8,488 nt of DNA, taken from contig PMCE01000551.1 in NCBI GenBank assembly GCA_003154025.1, positions 31,768 to 40,255 on the forward strand, read 5' to 3'. Below are positions 1 through 8,488 of this stretch, piece by piece (position 1 is the first letter of the stretch; the number at the start of each line of letters is the position of its first letter). This stretch comes from Syntrophaceae bacterium. Its GTDB lineage: Bacteria > Desulfobacterota > SM23-61. The position numbers and the translations under genes are program-made. The notes below the pieces were generated by a model that searched no databases, had not been told where the DNA came from, and was given only the letters and a program-made list of their open reading frames with translations.

Positions 1-440
1 CCATGAGCTATCGGCAATGAGCTGTGAGCTGTCTTTTTGGCCGGATTCGGCCCCAATTTCCGGATCTTCTCGGTCATCTCCCGGGCCACTTCGGCAAAGC
101 GGGGCCCCATGGCCGCGGACATGTTGTACATCTCCAGACGGTCCCCCCCGATGCCGGCTTCCTCCAGGATCTTCTTGGCCCAGGCCACCCGCTTCTTGGC
201 CCGGAAGTTTCCCTTGAGGAAATGGCAATCCCCCTCCATGCAGCCGGCCACGTAGACCCCGTCCGCCCCTCTTTCAAAGGCCTCCAGGAGGTGACGCACG
301 TCCACCTTGCCGGTGCAGGGAAGACGGATGATGCGCACGTTGGAAGGGTACTGCAGCCGCATGGTCCCCGCCAGGTCCGCCGCGGTGTAGGCACAGTAGT
401 GACAGCAGAAAGCGATGACGATGGGTTCAAAGGTTTCCAT
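1..440 (-). CDS. mvhD: MvhD-type [2Fe-2S] electron-transfer subunit (partial, open at left edge)
   Basis: This small cytoplasmic iron-sulfur protein belongs to the MvhD/FrhD hydrogenase-associated family, which passes electrons between HdrA and a partner enzyme. The window shows 146 codons without a stop, close to the family's usual length of about 140 residues. The expected cysteines are present: C13 and C16 (CHYC), C42 (PCTGKVD) and C67/C72 (GCMEGDC). C12 is an extra one. The ATG at 440 overlaps the hdrA stop as TGATG, and Shine-Dalgarno-like GGGGAG and AAGG lie in the last hdrA codons, so translation is probably coupled. No hydrogenase genes are visible. Next to folD and fhs the likelier partner is a methylene-tetrahydrofolate reductase (MetF/MetV) to the left; that is inference. 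The last visible residues (about 137-146) are encoded by a TGAGCT word repeat, so the C-terminus seems to run into an intergenic repeat, and the stop should lie just outside the window. Confidence 0.88.
   Translation of the reverse strand, partial: METFEPIVIAFCCHYCAYTAADLAGTMRLQYPSNVRIIRLPCTGKVDVRHLLEAFERGADGVYVAGCMEGDCHFLKGNFRAKKRVAWAKKILEEAGIGGDRLEMYNMSAAMGPRFAEVAREMTEKIRKLGPNPAKKTAHSSLPIAH
3..38. repeat. TGAGCT word repeat, probably half of a hairpin element
   Basis: TGAGCT occurs three times in 27 bases, at 4-9, 18-23 and 25-30 on the plus strand. It is followed by CTGTCTTTTT at 29-38. The same 10-mer flanks the inverted repeat between hdrC and hdrB (5915-5924). By analogy with the two complete elements in this window, a second inverted arm should lie beyond the left edge; this cannot be seen. 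The repeat lies in frame with the end of mvhD. Confidence 0.5.
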
Positions 441-3400
441 CAGACCCTTTCTCCCCTGAAAACATCGGTCAGAACCTCCACGATCACGTCGCACTTCGCC
501 ATGACCTGCTCGTCGGTGAAGTGCTGGAGGGTGATGGCTTTGCCCGGACACTCGGAGGCGCAGATGCCGCACCCGTGGCACATGGCCGTCTCGATCTCCG
601 CCACTCCGTTCCGGTTGATCACGGGGACGTTGTAGGGGCAGACACGCACGCAGGTAAGGCAGGCGGCGCACTTGTCGGCGTCCACCACCGAGACCACTCC
701 GCTGATCTGGATCTGGTCTTTGGACAGGACCGTACAGGCCCGGGAGACGGCCGCCGAGGCCTGCGACAGGCTCTCGTCGATCGTCTTGGGCGCATGGGCC
801 ATTCCGCAAAGATACAACCCCTCGGAAGCAAAGTCAACCGGTCGCAGCTTCATGTGCGCTTCCAGGAAAAAGCCCTCCGCCGTGCGGGGAATCTTGAGCA
901 GGGTGGCCAGCCCGGCCGTATCGGCCGGGAGGGTGGCCGCGGACAGGACCAGCAGGTCGGGCTGGAGAGTCAGGTTCTCCCGCAAGACCGGGTTGAAGAA
1001 GACCACCTCCAGGCGTCCGTCTTTCCGGGTCACCACCGGCTTGCGGTCCTCTTCATACCTCAGGAAGCGGATTCCGGCTTTTCTCGCGCGGGCATAATCC
1101 TCTTCCAGATGGCTGTACATGCGCATGTCCCGGTAGAGAACGGTCACCTGAGCCTTGGGGTTCAAGGTCTTGAGAGTCAGGGCATTCTTCACCGCCTCCG
1201 CGCAGCAGACCCGGCTGCAGTAGGGCCGCTCTTCATTCCGCGACCCCACGCACTGGATCATGACCACGTCTTTCAGCTCTTCCGCCCTCCGCCGGCTGCC
1301 GTGGAGGAGGCTCTCCATCTCCAGCTGGGTCAGCACCCGCGGGTCTTCTCCGTAGAGGTACTCCTTGGGCTTGAGCTCCTCCCCTCCGGTGGCGACGATG
1401 GTCACCCCGTGTTCGATGTTTTGCTCCTTTCCCTCGGAGCCGACCTTGAATGTGGTCTTGAAGTTGCCGATGTAGCCGGTGAAGTTCGTCAGAGTGGCGT
1501 TGGTGAAGGCCTGAATCCGGGGATTCCGGGCAACCCGGGCCTTCAGGTCTTCCAGGTAGCGGGGCACATCCTTGCCGGCCAGGGTGGTCTTCAGGCGCCG
1601 GAGGTTTCCTCCGAGCTCGGCTTCCTTCTCCAGCAGAACGGCCGCAAATCCTTGATCGGCCATCCCCAGGGCCGCTTTCATCCCGGACAACCCTCCGCCG
1701 ATGACCAGTCCCCGTTGGATGACCCCCTTGGTCAGTTCTTCCAGGGGCCGGTTCAGGCGGACGTTGGCCACGGCCATGCGGATCAGGTCGCGGGACTTGG
1801 AAGTGGCTTCATCCTTTTCATGCATGTGAACCCAGGAGCACTGGTCCCGGATGTTGGCCATCTCGAAGAGGTAGCGGTTCAGTCCCGCTTCCCGGATGGT
1901 CTCCTGAAAAAGGGGCTCGTGGGTCCGGGGCGAGCAGGAGGCCACCACCACCCGGTTGAGCTTGTGTTCCTCGATGGCCTTCTTGACCTTCTCCTGCGTG
2001 TCCTGGGAGCAGGTGTACAGGTTCTCGTCGGCAAAGACCACGTTGCCCAGGGAGGCCGCGTACTCCTTCACTTTCGGCACGTCCACCACCCCCCCGATGT
2101 TGTTGCCGCACCGGCAGATGAAGACGCCGATCCGGGGTTCTTCCCCCTTGACCTCTTTCTGCTGCGGGTACTGCTTGCGGGTCACCATCGTTCCCCGCAC
2201 GGCGGAGAGAGGCTCCGCGGCGGCCGCCGCCGCTCCGCTGGCCTGAGCCACGGTTTCGGGGATGTCTTTGGGCCCCTGGAAGACGCCGCAGACGTACACC
2301 CCCTCCCGGGTTGTGGCCAGGGGAGTCAGGGAGTCCGTCTTGGCGAACCCGTAGGGATCCAGCTCGATCTTCAGGCTCTTGGCCAATTCCTGGGTGGAGG
2401 CCGAAGGCACCATGCCCACGGATAGGACCGCCAGGTCGAACTCTTCTTCCTTGATCTCTCCCGCCTCATCCAGGTAGGTGATCAGCAGGTTCTTCGTCCG
2501 GGGATCCTCCACCACCCGGGAGATGGCGCAGCGCACGTACTTTACGCCGTACTCCCTCCGGGCCCTCTCGTAATAGGTGTCGAAGCCTTTTCCATAGGCC
2601 CGCATATCGATGAAGAAGATGGTGGGTTCGACCTCCTTCTCATGCTCCTTGGCGATGATCGCCTCCTTGGTGGCGTACATACAGCAGACCGAGGAACAGT
2701 AGGGATGGTTCTGATCGCGGCTCCCCACGCACTGGAGGAAAGCGATCTTTTTGGGGACCTTCCCGTCGGAAGGGCGTTGCACGTGCCCCATGGTGGGGCC
2801 GGAGGCGGAAAGAATCCGCTCGAACTGGAGCGCGTTCAACACGTTGGGATACCGTCCCAGCCCGTATTCCTGGGATAGGCGGGCGTTGTACACCTCGTAT
2901 CCGGGGGCCAGGACGATGGACCCCACCCGGATTTCCTCCTGGGTCTCAACCATCTCGTGGTTGATGGCCTTCAGTCCGCACTTGTAGTAGCAGCAGAGGC
3001 ACTCCGAGCAGACCCCGCAGGCCAGGCACCGGGCAGCTTCCGCCTTGGCCTCTTCTTCGCTGTACCCCTGGCTCACCTCTCGAAAAGTGGATACCCGCTC
3101 CTTGGCGGACTGGGCCCCCATGGAGACCCGGGGAGTTACTTTGATCTCGCCGTTGGACCGTTTTTCCTGAATCTCTTCCAGGGTCATCTTTACCACCGGG
3201 AGTTCCGGGGGGGCAGGGCGTTCCATATCCTCTCCCCGGAGGTACCGGTGCATGCTGTTGGCCGCCTTGTGCCCCGAGGCTACGGCGTCGATCACGAAAG
3301 TGGTCCCGGTAATGGCGTCGCCGGCGGCGAAGACCCCCGGGCGGGTAGCCGCCAGGGTGTTGGGATTGACGACGATGGTGGACCGGCGGGTGATTCCCAC

Positions 3401-4969
3401 GCCCGTGCTCTCGGGGATGAAGGCCAGGCCGGCCTGCTGGCCGATGGCAAAGATCACCACCTCGCAGAGTAGGGTATGTTCGCTTTCTTCCTCGGTCTCC
3501 AGGGTCAGCCGTCCGTCGCGGTCGAAATCCATGAAGGTTACCTTGACCGCCTCCACCCCGGCCACGTGTCCGTCCTTGTCTAGAATGCGCTTGAAGGATC
3601 GGCTGGGATACAGGGTGATCCCTTCTTCTTCGGCTTCGCGAATCTCTTCGAGGTTTGCGGGCGCCTTCTCCCGGCTCTCCAGGCAGGCCATGTCTACCCG
3701 GGACGCGCCCAGCCGGACCGCAGTGCGGGCGCAGTCCACGGCCACGTTCCCTCCTCCGAGGACCAGGACATGACGATTGCGGATGACCGATTGCGGGTTG
3801 CCGAGGAGGAATTGCGGCCCCACGTTCAGATTGGCCAGGCTGACGTCGCGAAGGAACTGGGTGTTGATCAATACCTCGGGAAGGTCGGCGCCGGGGATGG
3901 GCAGCTTCTTCCCCACGTGGGCTCCCACGGCTACGAGGACGGCCTTGAAGCCTTCCTTCGTCAGCTCGTCCAGGCTGGTGACCGGCGTGTTGAGTCGCAG
4001 GTCGATCCCCAGGTCGATGATCTCCCGCACTTCCCGGTCCACGACCATGGGGGGCAGGCGGTAATCGGGAATCCCCACCCGGAGCATTCCCCCGGCCAGG
4101 GGAAGGGCTTCGAAGAGGGTGACCGGGTATCCCAGCCTGCGCAGGTCCCGGGCCGCGGTGAGGCCGCAGGGGCCGGCGCCGATGATGGCCACCGGCTCGG
4201 CAAAATTGTAAGGAAGGGGATCCGGCGGGAGATAGGGTTGAGCATAGATCCGATCGGCCACGAAACGCTTCAACGTAGCGATGGAAACGGGCTGGTCTAC
4301 CAGATTCCGGTTGCACTCCTCCTCGCAGCGGTGGTTGCAGATCCGCCCGCAGATTCCGGGGAAGGGGTTGTCTTCTTTGATGACCCTCATGGCATCGTCG
4401 TACCGGCCCTCCCGGATGAGGGCGATGTACCCCTGGGCCCGCTGACCCGCCGGGCAGGCATCCCGGCAGGGGGCCACGCCGCGCTTTTCGATGGCGTAGG
4501 CATTGGGCACGGCCTGGGGATAGAGCTTGTAGGCCGCCCTCTGCTGGGCCATGCCCCCGTCGAACTTACTGGGCATGAGGATCGGGCACACCTGGGCGCA
4601 ATCGCTGCACCCCGTGCATTTGCTGATGTCGATGTAGCGGGGTTTGTGGCGCACGGTGACGGAGAAATTTCCGGCCTGCCCTTCCACCTTGGCCACTTCC
4701 GAGTCCATCACCAGCTGGATGTTGAGGTGGCGGCCCGTCTCCACCAGCTTGGGGCTGATGGTGCACATGGAGCAGTCGTTGGTGGGGAAGGTCTTGTCCA
4801 GCTGGGCCATGCGGCCGCCGATGGCCGAACTCTCCTCCACCAGGTAGACCTTGAACCCGGAGTTAGCCAGGTCCAGGGCGGCCTGCATCCCGCCCACGCC
4901 GCCGCCGACCACCATGACCGCCCCGATCTTTTCCATCCCTTTCGGTTGAGGTTCTTTCCCTTTTTCCAT
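440..4969 (-). CDS. hdrA: HdrA-GltD-HdrA fusion: electron-bifurcating heterodisulfide reductase subunit A with inserted NAD(P)H oxidoreductase domain
   Basis: This is a 1509-residue cytoplasmic flavin/Fe-S protein. HdrA module 1 starts directly at an FAD fold (GGGVGG, 22-27), then has NDCSMC (64-69) and a ferredoxin motif C118/C121/C124/C128. Residues about 160-600 form a GltD/NfnB-like domain: cysteines 168, 172, 207, 211, 215, 219; FAD motif GAGPCG (264-269); nucleotide motif GGGNVA (405-410); GVFAAGD (545-551). Cysteines 648-664 form a further cluster motif, and module 1 resumes with QCVGSRD and C758/C762/C763. After an Ala-rich link (913-918), module 2 is a full-length HdrA: N-terminal cysteines 952, 954, 987, 1012, 1044; FAD motif GGGLSG (1091-1096); QCVGSRN; and C-terminal 2x[4Fe-4S] cysteines 1434-1444 and 1464-1474. 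The frame stays open to 5170, but the ATG at 4969 has AAGGA five bases upstream and avoids a 186-base overlap with hdrB. It lies 14 bases after hdrB. The inferred role is NAD(P)H-linked electron bifurcation with HdrBC and MvhD. Confidence 0.93.
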   Translation of the reverse strand: MEKGKEPQPKGMEKIGAVMVVGGGVGGMQAALDLANSGFKVYLVEESSAIGGRMAQLDKTFPTNDCSMCTISPKLVETGRHLNIQLVMDSEVAKVEGQAGNFSVTVRHKPRYIDISKCTGCSDCAQVCPILMPSKFDGGMAQQRAAYKLYPQAVPNAYAIEKRGVAPCRDACPAGQRAQGYIALIREGRYDDAMRVIKEDNPFPGICGRICNHRCEEECNRNLVDQPVSIATLKRFVADRIYAQPYLPPDPLPYNFAEPVAIIGAGPCGLTAARDLRRLGYPVTLFEALPLAGGMLRVGIPDYRLPPMVVDREVREIIDLGIDLRLNTPVTSLDELTKEGFKAVLVAVGAHVGKKLPIPGADLPEVLINTQFLRDVSLANLNVGPQFLLGNPQSVIRNRHVLVLGGGNVAVDCARTAVRLGASRVDMACLESREKAPANLEEIREAEEEGITLYPSRSFKRILDKDGHVAGVEAVKVTFMDFDRDGRLTLETEEESEHTLLCEVVIFAIGQQAGLAFIPESTGVGITRRSTIVVNPNTLAATRPGVFAAGDAITGTTFVIDAVASGHKAANSMHRYLRGEDMERPAPPELPVVKMTLEEIQEKRSNGEIKVTPRVSMGAQSAKERVSTFREVSQGYSEEEAKAEAARCLACGVCSECLCCYYKCGLKAINHEMVETQEEIRVGSIVLAPGYEVYNARLSQEYGLGRYPNVLNALQFERILSASGPTMGHVQRPSDGKVPKKIAFLQCVGSRDQNHPYCSSVCCMYATKEAIIAKEHEKEVEPTIFFIDMRAYGKGFDTYYERARREYGVKYVRCAISRVVEDPRTKNLLITYLDEAGEIKEEEFDLAVLSVGMVPSASTQELAKSLKIELDPYGFAKTDSLTPLATTREGVYVCGVFQGPKDIPETVAQASGAAAAAAEPLSAVRGTMVTRKQYPQQKEVKGEEPRIGVFICRCGNNIGGVVDVPKVKEYAASLGNVVFADENLYTCSQDTQEKVKKAIEEHKLNRVVVASCSPRTHEPLFQETIREAGLNRYLFEMANIRDQCSWVHMHEKDEATSKSRDLIRMAVANVRLNRPLEELTKGVIQRGLVIGGGLSGMKAALGMADQGFAAVLLEKEAELGGNLRRLKTTLAGKDVPRYLEDLKARVARNPRIQAFTNATLTNFTGYIGNFKTTFKVGSEGKEQNIEHGVTIVATGGEELKPKEYLYGEDPRVLTQLEMESLLHGSRRRAEELKDVVMIQCVGSRNEERPYCSRVCCAEAVKNALTLKTLNPKAQVTVLYRDMRMYSHLEEDYARARKAGIRFLRYEEDRKPVVTRKDGRLEVVFFNPVLRENLTLQPDLLVLSAATLPADTAGLATLLKIPRTAEGFFLEAHMKLRPVDFASEGLYLCGMAHAPKTIDESLSQASAAVSRACTVLSKDQIQISGVVSVVDADKCAACLTCVRVCPYNVPVINRNGVAEIETAMCHGCGICASECPGKAITLQHFTDEQVMAKCDVIVEVLTDVFRGERV

Positions 4970-4983
4970 TTCTTTCCTTGCCT

Positions 4984-5814
4984 TCAGATGAGCCCCTTGG
5001 AAGCCAAGAGCTTCGTCGGGTCGACGAAATGCCTTTTCCACCACTTTCCCGCGTCCGGGTGGCCCAGGCTCAAGCCCATGAGTTCGGTGAAGTACAGAAT
5101 GGGCAGTTCGTATTTCCTGCCCGCCTCGCTGGAGATTTCTTCCTGCCGGGTGTCGAGGTTGGACTGGCAAAGGGGGCAGGCCACGACGATGGCTTCGGCC
5201 CCCGCCTCCAGGGCCTTGTCGAATAGCTTCCGGGTGAGCCGCCGGACGATGTCGGTCCGGGTCAGGACCAGGCTTCCGCCGCAGCAGTCGGTCTTGTAGG
5301 ACCAGGGGATCATCTCCGCCCCCATCAGGCTCAGGAGCCGGTCCATTTCCTCCGGGTTCTCGTATTTCTTCGCCCCGGTCACCTTGGGGGGCCGGACGAG
5401 CAGGCAGCCGTAATAACTGACCATTTTAAGACCGGCGAGGGAGCGCTTGATCATCCCCTTGATCCGTTCCCCCAGTTCCTCATCGGCAAGGAACTCCAGG
5501 AGGCTCAGGACACGGAAACGGAGCTTTTTGCCCCCTGCCTCCAATTCCCGCTCCCCCCCCTTGAGCCGGCTGTAGCAAGCCGCGCAGGGAACGACCACAT
5601 CCCTCCCCTCTTTTTCCGCGATGGCCAGGTTGCGGGCAACCAGGTTATGCGCCAGAGAATCATTGGTGACATGGGCGGAGCTGGCCCCGCAGCAGTTCCA
5701 GTCGGGCAGCTCGCAGAGCTCCACGCCCAAAAGAGCGCTCAAGCCCTTGGTAGATTCATCATATTCCAGGGCCGTACCATGGAGAGCGCAGCCGGGATAA
5801 TAGGAAACTTTCAA
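4984..5814 (-). CDS. hdrB: HdrB-like heterodisulfide reductase subunit B (two CCG domains)
   Basis: This 276-residue protein is the catalytic-type subunit that, in methanogen HdrB, holds two noncubane [4Fe-4S] clusters and reduces a disulfide. Both CCG motifs are intact: C9, C41-C42, C77/C80, and C137, C177-C178, C213/C216. The spacings of 31/34 and 39/34 residues fit the CX31-39CCX35-36CXXC family pattern closely. It has no transmembrane segment or signal peptide. The frame can start at a TTG at 5820, but the TTG at 5814 is preferred: GAGGGG at 5821-5826 then sits six bases upstream, and the protein begins MKVSYYPGC, as HdrB proteins usually do. No ATG is available near the N-terminus. The gene sits between hdrC and hdrA in the usual hdrCBA order, with only 14 bases before hdrA. 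The physiological acceptor here need not be CoM-S-S-CoB; in this setting it may relay electrons to a methylene-tetrahydrofolate reductase, which is inference. Confidence 0.93.
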   Translation of the reverse strand: MKVSYYPGCALHGTALEYDESTKGLSALLGVELCELPDWNCCGASSAHVTNDSLAHNLVARNLAIAEKEGRDVVVPCAACYSRLKGGERELEAGGKKLRFRVLSLLEFLADEELGERIKGMIKRSLAGLKMVSYYGCLLVRPPKVTGAKKYENPEEMDRLLSLMGAEMIPWSYKTDCCGGSLVLTRTDIVRRLTRKLFDKALEAGAEAIVVACPLCQSNLDTRQEEISSEAGRKYELPILYFTELMGLSLGHPDAGKWWKRHFVDPTKLLASKGLI

Positions 5815-5820
5815 GGTCAA

Positions 5821-5831: not shown

Positions 5832-5924
5832 AAAAAAAGAATTCAGAATCCAGAAGCCAGAATTCAGAAGCCGGAACGTTTTTATTCTGACTCCTGACTC
5901 CTGGATTCTGAATTCTGTCTTTTT
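5832..5924 (-). terminator. Terminator-like inverted repeat between hdrC and hdrB (intergenic hairpin element)
   Basis: The arms at 5838-5869 and 5885-5916 are inverted copies matching at 28 of 32 positions, the outer 16 perfectly, around a 15-base loop. Read on the minus strand, as hdrC-hdrB is transcribed, the stem is followed by a run of seven Ts (5832-5838, the last shared with the arm) and preceded by AAAAA. This is the form of an intrinsic terminator, although the stem is AT-rich. The arms consist of short related words (GAATTCAG, GAATCCAG, GGAGTCAG) rather than a unique stem, so it also looks like a repeated genomic element. Because hdrB must still be expressed, partial termination, mRNA processing or 3'-end protection of the upstream message are possible roles. 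Function is not shown by the sequence. Confidence 0.6.
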
Positions 5925-6472
5925 CATCCTTTCAATCCCCGGAAGAAACCTTTAATCTCTTTCTTCTCCCGGACCCCCGACGGGAAGAGCTTGAGCTTCC
6001 CCTTGGCAAACATCCTCCATCCCAGCTTGAAGTCCTCCATCCACTTTCCCGTTTTCTGCTTGTACCGGACCATCATGGAGAGCTCGTGGACACGCCCATT
6101 GGACCGGATGGCCTCCAGGAAGGTGGAGTGGAAGAGGGCCACTTCCTTCTCCGCCGGGGGCACCCCTTCCCGGATGGCCGTCTGGCGCAACCAGTCCATG
6201 ACTTTGGCGATGTCGATGTCGTTGGGGCAGCGGGTGGAGCAGGTGTAGCAGGAGGCGCAGACCCAGATGGTCTTGGAAGAGAGGAGCCGGTCCTTCATCC
6301 CCAGGGAGACCATCTGCATGACCTGGTTGGGTTTGAAATCCATGGCGAAGGCCACGGGGCAGCCGGCCGAGCACTTCTGACACTGGTAACAATCCTGGAC
6401 GTTGAGCCTGCTTCCCCTGGAAAAGGGATCTGAGGGAGCCGAGGGGACTTCCCGAATCTTGGTCTCAGGCAC
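5924..6472 (-). CDS. hdrC: HdrC-like heterodisulfide reductase subunit C (two [4Fe-4S] clusters)
   Basis: This 182-residue soluble ferredoxin-like subunit relays electrons from HdrA to HdrB. It has two complete CxxCxxCxxxCP motifs: C28/C31/C34/C38 and C72/C75/C78/C82. The segment between them (KPNQVMQMVSLGM, ending at 59) is typical of HdrC. The C-terminal tail (about 100-182) is basic and helical in character, with no membrane segments, which separates it from the membrane-anchored HdrE/DsrM-linked types. The start is a GTG at 6472, supported by GGAAGGAG at 6481-6488 eight bases upstream; no in-frame ATG is better placed. It is the first gene of the hdrCBA-mvhD run, 156 bases after folD. The 103-base gap to the longest hdrB frame, with its hairpin, is unusually large for genes whose products form one complex. 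Confidence 0.92.
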   Translation of the reverse strand: MPETKIREVPSAPSDPFSRGSRLNVQDCYQCQKCSAGCPVAFAMDFKPNQVMQMVSLGMKDRLLSSKTIWVCASCYTCSTRCPNDIDIAKVMDWLRQTAIREGVPPAEKEVALFHSTFLEAIRSNGRVHELSMMVRYKQKTGKWMEDFKLGWRMFAKGKLKLFPSGVREKKEIKGFFRGLKG

Positions 6473-6628: not shown

Positions 6629-7519
6629 TTACGTCTTGAGGTCGGCGGCGACTTTGGCCGCCTTGACCGTGTTCATCATCAGCATGGTGATGGTCATAGG
6701 GCCGACCCCTCCGGGCACCGGAGTGATCAGGCTGGCTTTCTCCTTCACCCCCTCAAAGTCCACGTCCCCGCAGAGAATGGCCTTGCCCTCTTTGCTCATG
6801 CCGATCCGGTTGACGCCCACGTCGATGACCACCGCCCCTTCCTTCACCATGTCCGCGGTCACGGCCTTCGCCTTGCCGGCGGCCACGATGAGGATGTCCG
6901 CGCGTTTGGTATGGTAGGCGATATCCCGCGTGCCCGTGTGGCAGATGGTTACCGTGGCATTGGCCCCCTTTTGCTTCTGGAGGAGGATATTGGCGATTGG
7001 CTTGCCCACGATGTTCGAACGCCCCAAGACCACCACTTCGGCCCCGTCGGTATTCACCCCCGAGCGGATGAGAAGCTGCTGGATTCCCGCCGGGGTGCAG
7101 GGCAGGTAATCGGCCTCCCCGATCATCAGCTTCCCCACATTCACCGGATGAAACCCATCCACGTCCTTCTTAGGGTCGATGGCATAGAGGACTTTGGTCT
7201 CGTTGATGTGCTTGGGCAGGGGGAGCTGGACCAGGATTCCGTGGATTTTCGGGTCTCGGTTGTACTTGTCGATCAGCTCCAGAAGTTTGGCTTCGGAGAT
7301 GTCCTCCGGCTGGTTGTCCTGGATGGAGTGGAACCCCAGTTCCTTGGCCGTCTTCTGCTTTCCCGTGACGTAACTCACCGAAGCAGGGTTCTGTCCCACC
7401 AGGACGGTCACCAGGCCGGGGACGACATTGCTTTTTTCCTTCAAGGCGGCCACTTCCCTGGCTAACTCTTCCCGGATCTGTCTGGCTACCTCGGTTCCGC
7501 TGATGATCTTCGCGGGCAT
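6629..7519 (-). CDS. folD: FolD: bifunctional 5,10-methylene-THF dehydrogenase / 5,10-methenyl-THF cyclohydrolase
   Basis: FolD interconverts 10-formyl-, methenyl- and methylene-tetrahydrofolate in the cytoplasm, the middle of the methyl branch. The 296-residue product is of the usual length. It has the active-site residues at the Escherichia coli numbering: Y50 and K54 (YVTGK), Q98 (VQLPLP) and D121 (KKDVDGFHP). Other family signatures are PCTPAGI (140-146), the nucleotide-binding GRSNIVGKP (166-174) and PVPGGVGPMT (267-276). The ATG at 7519 has AAGGAGG at 7524-7530, four bases upstream, an excellent site. It follows fhs, which feeds it formyl-THF, and precedes the hdr genes. R167 and S168 are retained at the cofactor phosphate-binding position, which suggests NADP use; that is not certain from sequence. 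Confidence 0.98.
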   Translation of the reverse strand: MPAKIISGTEVARQIREELAREVAALKEKSNVVPGLVTVLVGQNPASVSYVTGKQKTAKELGFHSIQDNQPEDISEAKLLELIDKYNRDPKIHGILVQLPLPKHINETKVLYAIDPKKDVDGFHPVNVGKLMIGEADYLPCTPAGIQQLLIRSGVNTDGAEVVVLGRSNIVGKPIANILLQKQKGANATVTICHTGTRDIAYHTKRADILIVAAGKAKAVTADMVKEGAVVIDVGVNRIGMSKEGKAILCGDVDFEGVKEKASLITPVPGGVGPMTITMLMMNTVKAAKVAADLKT

Positions 7520-7612: not shown

Positions 7613-8488
7613 TTAGAACAGGCCTTTCACCTTCCCCGTCTTCACATCCACGTCCACCCTCCGGAAAGCCGGGTCCGAGCTCGTTCCGGGCATGAGGGTG
7701 ATGGCCCCGGTGACCGGGCAGAGGAACTTGGCCCCGGAGTACACCAGGACGTCCCGTACGGGGAGGGTCCATCCCTTGGGAACTCCCTTGAGCTCCGGAT
7801 TGTGGGACAGGCTCAGGTGGGTCTTCACCATCATGGTGGCGAATTCGTTGTATTTGGGGTCGGACTCGAGCTTCTTGGCTTTGGCCTGGGCTTCGGGAGT
7901 CCAGGTGACCCCGTCCGCGCCGTAAACCTTCTTGGCCACCGTCTCCACCCGCTGGCGGAAAGGCATATCCATTGGATAGAGGAATTTGAACTGCGACTTC
8001 TCGTTGCAGGCGTCGATGACCGCGTCGGCCAGCTCCAGGGCCCCGTCCCCCCCTTTGGCCCAGTGTTCGGATACCGCCACGCGAGCGCCGGCCTGCTCGC
8101 AGGCCTTCCGCAGGAAGGCGATTTCGTCTTTGGTGTCGGTGTAAAAGGAATTGATGCACACCACCGGGTTGATCCCCGCTTGTTTTACGATCCCGATGTG
8201 GTGGATCACGTTGCTCACCCCCTTCTCGAGGAGGGGGATACTCTCCTTGGTGTAGGAGGAGTCCAAGGGCAGCCCGGCCACCACTTTGGGCCCGCCGCCG
8301 TGCATCTTCAACGCCCGAACCGTGGCGGTGACGACGGCCACGTTGGGAATCAGGCCGCTGTACCGGCACTTCACGTTCCAGAACTTCTCAAAGCCGATGT
8401 CCGCGCCGAAACCGCTCTCGGTCACGTTGTAGTCGAACATCTTCAGGGCGATCCGGTCGGCGATGATGGAGGACTGGCCCACGGCGAT
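7613..8488 (-). CDS. fhs: Formate-tetrahydrofolate ligase, C-terminal half (cut by right edge)
   Basis: This enzyme makes 10-formyl-THF from formate, THF and ATP, the entry step of the methyl branch (or makes ATP in reverse). The window holds 291 codons to a TAA stop, about half of a protein usually 550-600 residues long. The N-terminal part, including the P-loop, lies beyond the right edge. Family signatures include [15 protein letters not shown], the ALKMHGG stretch, [18 protein letters not shown] and the end [11 protein letters not shown] to GLF. The segment [16 protein letters not shown] replaces the IAHGCNS-type segment of clostridial enzymes, which points to a separate Fhs subfamily. 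That comparison is from memory and not computed. A GTG at 8482 is an internal valine codon rather than the start, since the conserved sequence continues to the edge. Confidence 0.97.

Follow-up and report, generated by a model that had tools for sequence, protein, structure and literature searches.

The HdrA fusion gene and its domains

The window analyzed here (the whole stretch of 8,488 nucleotides from contig PMCE01000551.1 of a Syntrophaceae bacterium) contains, at positions 440..4969 on the minus strand, an hdrA/hdrL-type fusion gene in which a GltD/NfnB-like NAD(P)H oxidoreductase is combined with two HdrA modules. As the first-pass annotation had claimed, the gene is a single intact frame of 1509 amino acids (start, ATG at 4969; stop, TGA at 442-440). 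The frame is open upstream as far as a TTG at 5170; however, this extension would run into hdrB (4984-5820), and the homolog of locus L001 (84% identical) begins at the same place as the window protein, and thus the ATG at 4969 was favored.

The alignment used below (A1, 99 rows) consisted of the window protein, the proteins of loci L004 and L005, and 96 of the 119 other proteins in a list of the best 120 of 8000 scored; the 23 listed proteins omitted were dropped as shorter or nearly duplicate sequences, or in a thinning that followed no fixed rule. The 96 homologs span at least 97% of the query, with the exception of P0118 (79%). The homologs of L001, L003 and L005 are single frames of 1509, 1537 and 1477 amino acids in three different named assemblies, and such full-length frames rule out an assembly join of separate genes. 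Note that most of the compared sequences are from metagenomes or from genomes of unplaced source. The window gene is a real, well-conserved gene of a known kind, with the following parts (all on the minus strand; residue numbers in parentheses).

4484..4924, minus strand: TrxR domain 1, first half (16-162; query 19-166 against 5odc_A 147-294), with the FAD (flavin adenine dinucleotide) motif 22-27, the C66/C69 pair and the first inserted-ferredoxin motif C118/121/124/128; in the alignment, C69 falls opposite Cys197 of M. thermolithotrophicus HdrA
3029..4483, minus strand: GltD insert (163-647), composed of an Fe-S region, a FAD domain and an NAD(P)H domain; matches PF14691 (165-242), PF07992 (260-566), 9bov_A (166-663) and other GltD-fold chains
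4268..4270, minus strand: K234, aligned opposite StnC K170 (ligand of the FAD-proximal cluster)
3455..3775, minus strand: NAD(P)H-binding subdomain (399-505) with GGGNVA
3674..3685, minus strand: CLES (429-432), closing strand beta-2; 'LE' class
2204..3028, minus strand: TrxR domain 1, second half (648-922; 5odc_A match), with ferredoxin motif C654/657/660/664, E717 (codon 2819-2821) and K768 (codon 2666-2668)
1718..2143, minus strand: HdrA N-terminal (MvhD-like) domain of module 2 (943-1084), with C952/954/987/1012
695..1717, minus strand: TrxR domain 2 (1085-1425), with FAD motif 1091-1096, E1219 (codon 1313-1315) and K1261 (codon 1187-1189)
500..694, minus strand: C-terminal two-cluster ferredoxin domain (1426-1490; PF13237 at 1428-1475)

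The three FAD-type motifs (GGGVGG 22-27, GAGPCG 264-269 and GGGLSG 1091-1096) and the nucleotide motif (GGGNVA 405-410) lie exactly where the first-pass annotation had placed them. Its two HdrA modules and GltD part were likewise recovered, but not in the order HdrA-GltD-HdrA: a simple tandem fusion was ruled out, since GltD sits inside the first TrxR domain and the second module comes after it. Residues 19-166 and 654-869 match one TrxR/inserted-ferredoxin region of HdrA 5odc_A and are separated by the GltD/NfnB-like stretch (approximately 165-660); the first HdrA domain is thus assembled from two sequence pieces. Residues 943-1115 match the HdrA N-terminal domain (5odc_A 2-174) and 1357-1491 the C-terminal region, so that the N-terminal domain is found in module 2 only and the C66/C69 pair in module 1. 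The Pfam search was consistent with this fold-based layout. The predicted model of residues 1-931 (pLDDT, 82; pTM, 0.72; 41 sequences) superposes on solved HdrA chains over approximately 9-924 and on 9bov_A and 8oh5_C over 161-667.

Operon context and the proposed electron path

The gene order in the window is fhs-folD-hdrC-hdrB-hdrA-mvhD, and the neighbors of hdrA are as follows.

3..440, minus strand: mvhD (PF02662, E 6.8e-53); the frame reaches the window edge, and the ATG shares one base with the hdrA stop
4984..5820, minus strand: hdrB, with two CCG stretches
5924..6472, minus strand: hdrC (Fer4_8/Fer4_17; TIGR03290 E 1.5e-23, under its cut-off)
6629..7519, minus strand: folD (PF02882, PF00763)
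7613..8488, minus strand: fhs, 3' part only (PF01268 profile positions 275-556)

An NAD(P)H module within the HdrA chain beside hdrB, hdrC and mvhD fits the bifurcating hub suggested in the first pass; the attribute "self-sufficient" was too strong, since MvhD has a gene of its own, as does the acceptor side (HdrBC, with MetVF in relatives). With a probability of roughly 0.7, we read the window gene as the flavin hub of a Moorella-type MetVF-HdrABC-MvhD methylene-tetrahydrofolate (methylene-THF) reductase, NADH-oxidizing and bifurcating and probably supplying NADH electrons to carbon fixation, in a bacterium close to Syntrophaceae/deltaproteobacterial metagenome-assembled genomes (MAGs). At the level of sequence, this is supported by the GltD insert, the two HdrA modules, the conserved Fe-S ligands, the two flavin Glu/Lys (E/K) pairs and the operon.

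The order in L003 repeats that of the window and then continues with metV-metF; in L001 and L002 it is hdrC-hdrB-hdrA-mvhD-metV-metF, followed in L001 by RACo and a CODH/ACS subunit. The context survey covered 63 GltD-type loci besides the window, 52 of them with at least 2.5 kb downstream; there, mvhD was found in 48/52, metV in 35/52, and metV together with a MetF homolog in 32/52. By class of the insert, metV was downstream in 18 of 21 LE loci and 17 of 31 RR loci. Met genes lie upstream instead in some of the loci without downstream metV (L056, L058, L060, L103 and L104), and some such loci carry Flx-like genes or a FAD oxidase. GltD-free HdrA proteins occur in similar hdr/mvhD/met operons (L006, 1030 amino acids; L106), and the insert is therefore dispensable for this operon type.

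The class was read off where strand beta-2 ends: the window has CLES there, and the five solved chains shown have YRR; position 431 in A1 is Glu in 73 rows and Arg in 26. An acidic residue at this site generally goes with NADH, and an Arg pair with NADPH. By this rule, the window insert would belong to the NADH-like class, which would agree with the NADH activity reported for Moorella.

For the site of bifurcation, the conserved residues were compared in A1 and in the wider set of 64 sequences (63 loci and the window). E717 and K768, which are equivalent by alignment to E356/K409 of 5odc_A and thus correspond to the pair of bifurcating HdrA, are kept in 99/99 and 64/64; on this conservation, the first HdrA flavin probably bifurcates. 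The second pair is less constant (E1219, 96/99 and 46/64; K1261, 97/99 and 51/64). K234 is invariant in A1 and kept in 62/64 of the wider set (His in L066 and L067), and the aligned residue is Lys (K170) in StnC and Glu in the NfnB chains 4ylf_B and 5jca_L. According to PMC10482914, the cluster next to the FAD has Glu in NfnB, which bifurcates, and Lys in StnC, which does not. The window protein thus has the StnC-like residue rather than the Glu ligand of NfnB, and GltD is probably a non-bifurcating entry flavin. Two bifurcation sites, one in the GltD part as in NfnB and one at the HdrA flavin, would accord with the double bifurcation suggested for ANME-1 HdrA-NfnB proteins (PLoS Biol 2022, PMC9012536) and with R304 (aligned to StnC R239, counterpart of NfnB R201), which is invariant (64/64); with Lys at 234 and no NfnA-like partner among the six window genes in the Pfam search, however, we judge an NfnB-like second site quite improbable. 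That the protein is a plain NADH:methylene-THF conduit with the E/K pairs as relics is also unlikely: the first pair is retained throughout the wider set, although the second is lost in parts of the family and bifurcation in Moorella and Sporomusa is described in PMC9430772 as proposed rather than demonstrated.

Under the preferred reading of a single bifurcating flavin, NADH would reduce the GltD FAD, and single electrons would pass via the GltD clusters and the clusters of the split inserted ferredoxin to the first HdrA FAD, where they would be bifurcated. The high-potential electrons would travel through the cluster of the N-terminal domain to HdrC, HdrB and MetV-MetF, reducing methylene-THF, and the low-potential electrons would leave through the branch of second TrxR, C-terminal ferredoxin and MvhD to ferredoxin or a similar acceptor. 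With the E0' values given in PMC9430772 and PMC5861303 (NADH, -320 mV; methylene-THF, -200 mV; ferredoxin, -420 mV), the coupled reaction is near equilibrium, so that reversal (confurcation) would be possible in acetate oxidizers.

Several points weigh against this reading. metV-metF are not within the window, which ends inside the mvhD frame, and 17/52 relatives are without metV downstream. The NADH assignment leans on the general beta-2 rule. Under the GXGXXG/GXGXXA rule as given in PMC12054007, GGGNVA would be of the NADP type. Lys is also found opposite K234 in 9bov_A, the title of which names a bifurcating Nfn-ABC, so that Lys alone has no power to place the bifurcation site. The GltD-free HdrA of Sporomusa is described as having weak NADH:benzyl viologen activity (0.5 U/mg, PMC9430772), and GltD may therefore not be the sole NADH site; the same source reports no methylene-THF-dependent oxidation of NADH or NADPH in Sporomusa crude extract. 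According to PMC5861303, the second acceptor in Moorella has yet to be identified. Finally, the likeness to Moorella was read via published residue numbers and descriptions, not from direct sequence comparison.

It is also rather unlikely that the main direction of the hub is the reverse one, or that its partners are of the sulfite/DsrC, formate or hydrogenase kind, as has been put forward for HdrL of Desulfobacterium (Db.) autotrophicum. dsrABC following hdrL1-mvhD in that species (PMC2702500), the relatives beside Flx-like genes and a FAD oxidase, and a NiFe hydrogenase gene upstream in L001 all speak for such partners; on the other side, fhs and folD belong to the window operon, and metV-metF come directly after mvhD in L001-L003, the closest three of the named loci.

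Other partner genes were observed at single loci. Flx-like Fe-S and NAD-binding genes follow mvhD beside a GltD-bearing HdrA in L061 (10425-15501) and L004 (14837-17517), the L061 cluster also having a FAD oxidase with a CCG domain; a single complex may bring together two NAD(P)H modules there. A NiFe hydrogenase large subunit gene (Pfam) was noted at 394-2142 of L001 and 8269-10715 of L116; preceded by an apparent small subunit gene (by eye) and followed by MetV- and MetF-like genes and a sensor kinase, it lies upstream of hdrC in the closest named relative. Hydrogen input via MvhD is possible there. The deltaproteobacterial locus L013 (3253-10938) encodes a distant GltD-containing HdrA-like protein (1125 amino acids), further HdrA pieces and a 531-amino-acid protein matching MvhD and HdrC, and adjoins genes resembling 2-ketoacid oxidoreductase subunits (by eye).

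Probable exchange of the GltD insert

We consider it fairly likely that the GltD insert is an exchangeable cofactor cassette, of which NADH-type (CLES-like) and NADPH-type (YRR-like) forms were swapped repeatedly between HdrA proteins of conserved backbone and copied between paralogs of the same genome; such swapping would apparently retune the electron donor of a bifurcating enzyme with the remainder unchanged. Trees were reconstructed from 77 proteins: all locus and window sequences except L002 (63 of 64), and 14 of the 96 A1 homologs. On the HdrA tree (HdrA columns only, 970 columns), the class label changes 14 times, with 11 changes forced by well-supported branches, versus 25.5 with shuffled labels; restricting the data to the 548 columns of the second HdrA half (without L105) gave 15 changes, 11 forced, and the GltD tree without the NAD subdomain gave 8 changes, 4 forced. 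On the HdrA tree, P0040 is the sister of L003; the two share 94.6% identity in the HdrA parts and 63% in GltD, and the GltD of P0040 clusters with P0048 and other Arg-type proteins. In the approximately unbiased (AU) test, constraining L003 and P0040 together in the GltD data was rejected (p-AU 0.0007), as was forcing six of the 43 Arg-type rows (P0040, P0048, P0053, P0065, P0074 and P0079) into one group in the HdrA data (p-AU 8e-10).

Copying within a genome is suggested by G442: its two hubs, encoded on the same 2.63 Mb contig, share 55% identity in the HdrA parts versus 89% in GltD, and their sliding identity steps near residues 165 and 595. The paralogs of G354, G449, G564 and G390 are 51-55% identical in HdrA and 72-74% in GltD; the copies of G354, G449 and G564 are close relatives and may record a single event. 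A GltD that simply evolves slowly or fast fits poorly, as pairs with HdrA identity of 0.53-0.55 differ in GltD (0.45-0.46 in G336 and G363, 0.89 in G442). The rank correlation of pairwise identity was 0.19 between GltD and module 2 (T2-Fd), and 0.51 between the first HdrA domain and module 2.

On the other side, the correlation between the first HdrA domain and GltD (0.46) is within the range of the HdrA parts (0.41-0.51), which does not fit a wholly independent GltD, and the other 14 of 19 same-genome pairs are without raised GltD identity. P0040 by itself could be a chimeric assembly, although the cluster to which it belongs has a second member on another contig and from another source, which speaks against this. 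The trees were quick searches with one support measure and several long-branch rows, and the groups for the AU tests were chosen after the trees were seen. L059 and L070 form a reverse mosaic, alike in T1a, GltD and N2; sliding identity placed their difference in the second TrxR and part of TrxR domain 1, so that exchange or uneven divergence extends beyond GltD, and this pair was not counted as a further GltD exchange. Comparison of the L092/L093 DNA with blastn gave one 70%-identity match over 3,090 bases and no added breakpoint.

In searches of open-licence PMC papers, no report of cassette exchange in HdrA was found among the titles and passages listed. If the cassette reading is true, natural matched pairs such as L003 and P0040 would make it possible to identify the residues that decide between NADH and NADPH in a bifurcating complex, and to see whether the donor potential alters its energy balance.

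Distribution and known systems

Of 297 genomes drawn from the phylum of G001 (the L001 genome, a Syntrophaceae MAG), 130 have a match to the window protein with E <= 1e-299. Among the matches listed, many span approximately 13-1497, and 130 is to be taken as a maximum for the GltD type in this draw. The phylum of G008 (an Ardenticatenia MAG) gave such a match in 14/301 genomes, of which 12 cross the GltD stretch and 2 cover only approximately 656-1497. A gene kind known from Moorella is thus common in a phylum rich in sulfate reducers and syntrophs. As separate observations, one family member, P0053, is attributed by one source to a Methanoregula MAG, possibly by mis-binning or transfer, and an in-frame TGA is found at position 69 (Cys69, the Cys197 equivalent) in L067, L087 and L093, consistent with selenocysteine; a SelB-like gene is present in L092, which comes from the genome of L093.

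The first-pass annotation had contrasted the window with Moorella, where the electron-donating partner was taken to be usually a separate polypeptide, and had placed novelty in order and context. Neither holds: the HdrA of Moorella (162.8 kDa) is described in PMC9430772 as starting with a TrxR-like domain interrupted by GltD, after which come an MvhD-like domain, another TrxR and, at the C terminus, a ferredoxin domain; many relatives, moreover, have mvhD-metV downstream of a gene of this kind. Predicted cofactors there are eight [4Fe-4S] clusters, three FAD and one NAD(P)H site, and NADH-dependent reduction of benzyl viologen is reported for the enzyme (190 U/mg, a value cited in PMC9430772). 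The window protein shares with it the domain order, both E/K pairs (E696/K750 and E1204/K1246 in Moorella, PMC9430772), the operon with hdrBC and mvhD, and a similar length (last published Moorella residue 1487, versus 1509); by published residue numbers only, the spacing of E717-K768-E1219-K1261 is 51/451/42 versus 54/454/42. The Moorella operon has metVF, and the window differs from it in fhs-folD directly upstream of hdrC. Sporomusa HdrA, as described in the same source, is without GltD. What the analysis adds is the spread of this gene kind, the lysine that the probable entry flavin shares with StnC, and evidence that the NAD(P)H cassette may be swappable.

HdrL of the sulfate reducer Db. 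autotrophicum was named an Hdr/glutamate-synthase fusion in 2009 and, like the window gene, is followed by mvhD (PMC2702500); if it shares the domain order, the remark in that paper that it seemed unique to one species falls. As reported there, HdrL1 and HdrL3 carry selenocysteine (selenocysteine being reported for HdrA/HdrL) and dsrABC follow hdrL1-mvhD, whereas the window has Cys and a Wood-Ljungdahl context. An HdrL-like protein is reported in Desulfurivibrio (PMC12142623), and hdrABC beside metF in sulfate-reducing partners of methane oxidizers (PMC10553843). GltD/NfnB insertions are described in archaeal HdrA (PMC12054007, PMC9012536): type III HdrA/HdrA9-11 of ANME-1 and Bathyarchaeota resemble the window protein in having GltD/NfnB within the inserted-ferredoxin region but are otherwise most like the single-TrxR type I, whereas the window protein has a second TrxR (1085-1425) and thus does not belong to type III. 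StnC of Sporomusa ovata (8oh5_C) and NfnABC (9bov_A) likewise have a GltD fold fused to a redox module and Lys at the K234 site; the partner module of StnC is NuoG-like, and that of the window protein is HdrA.

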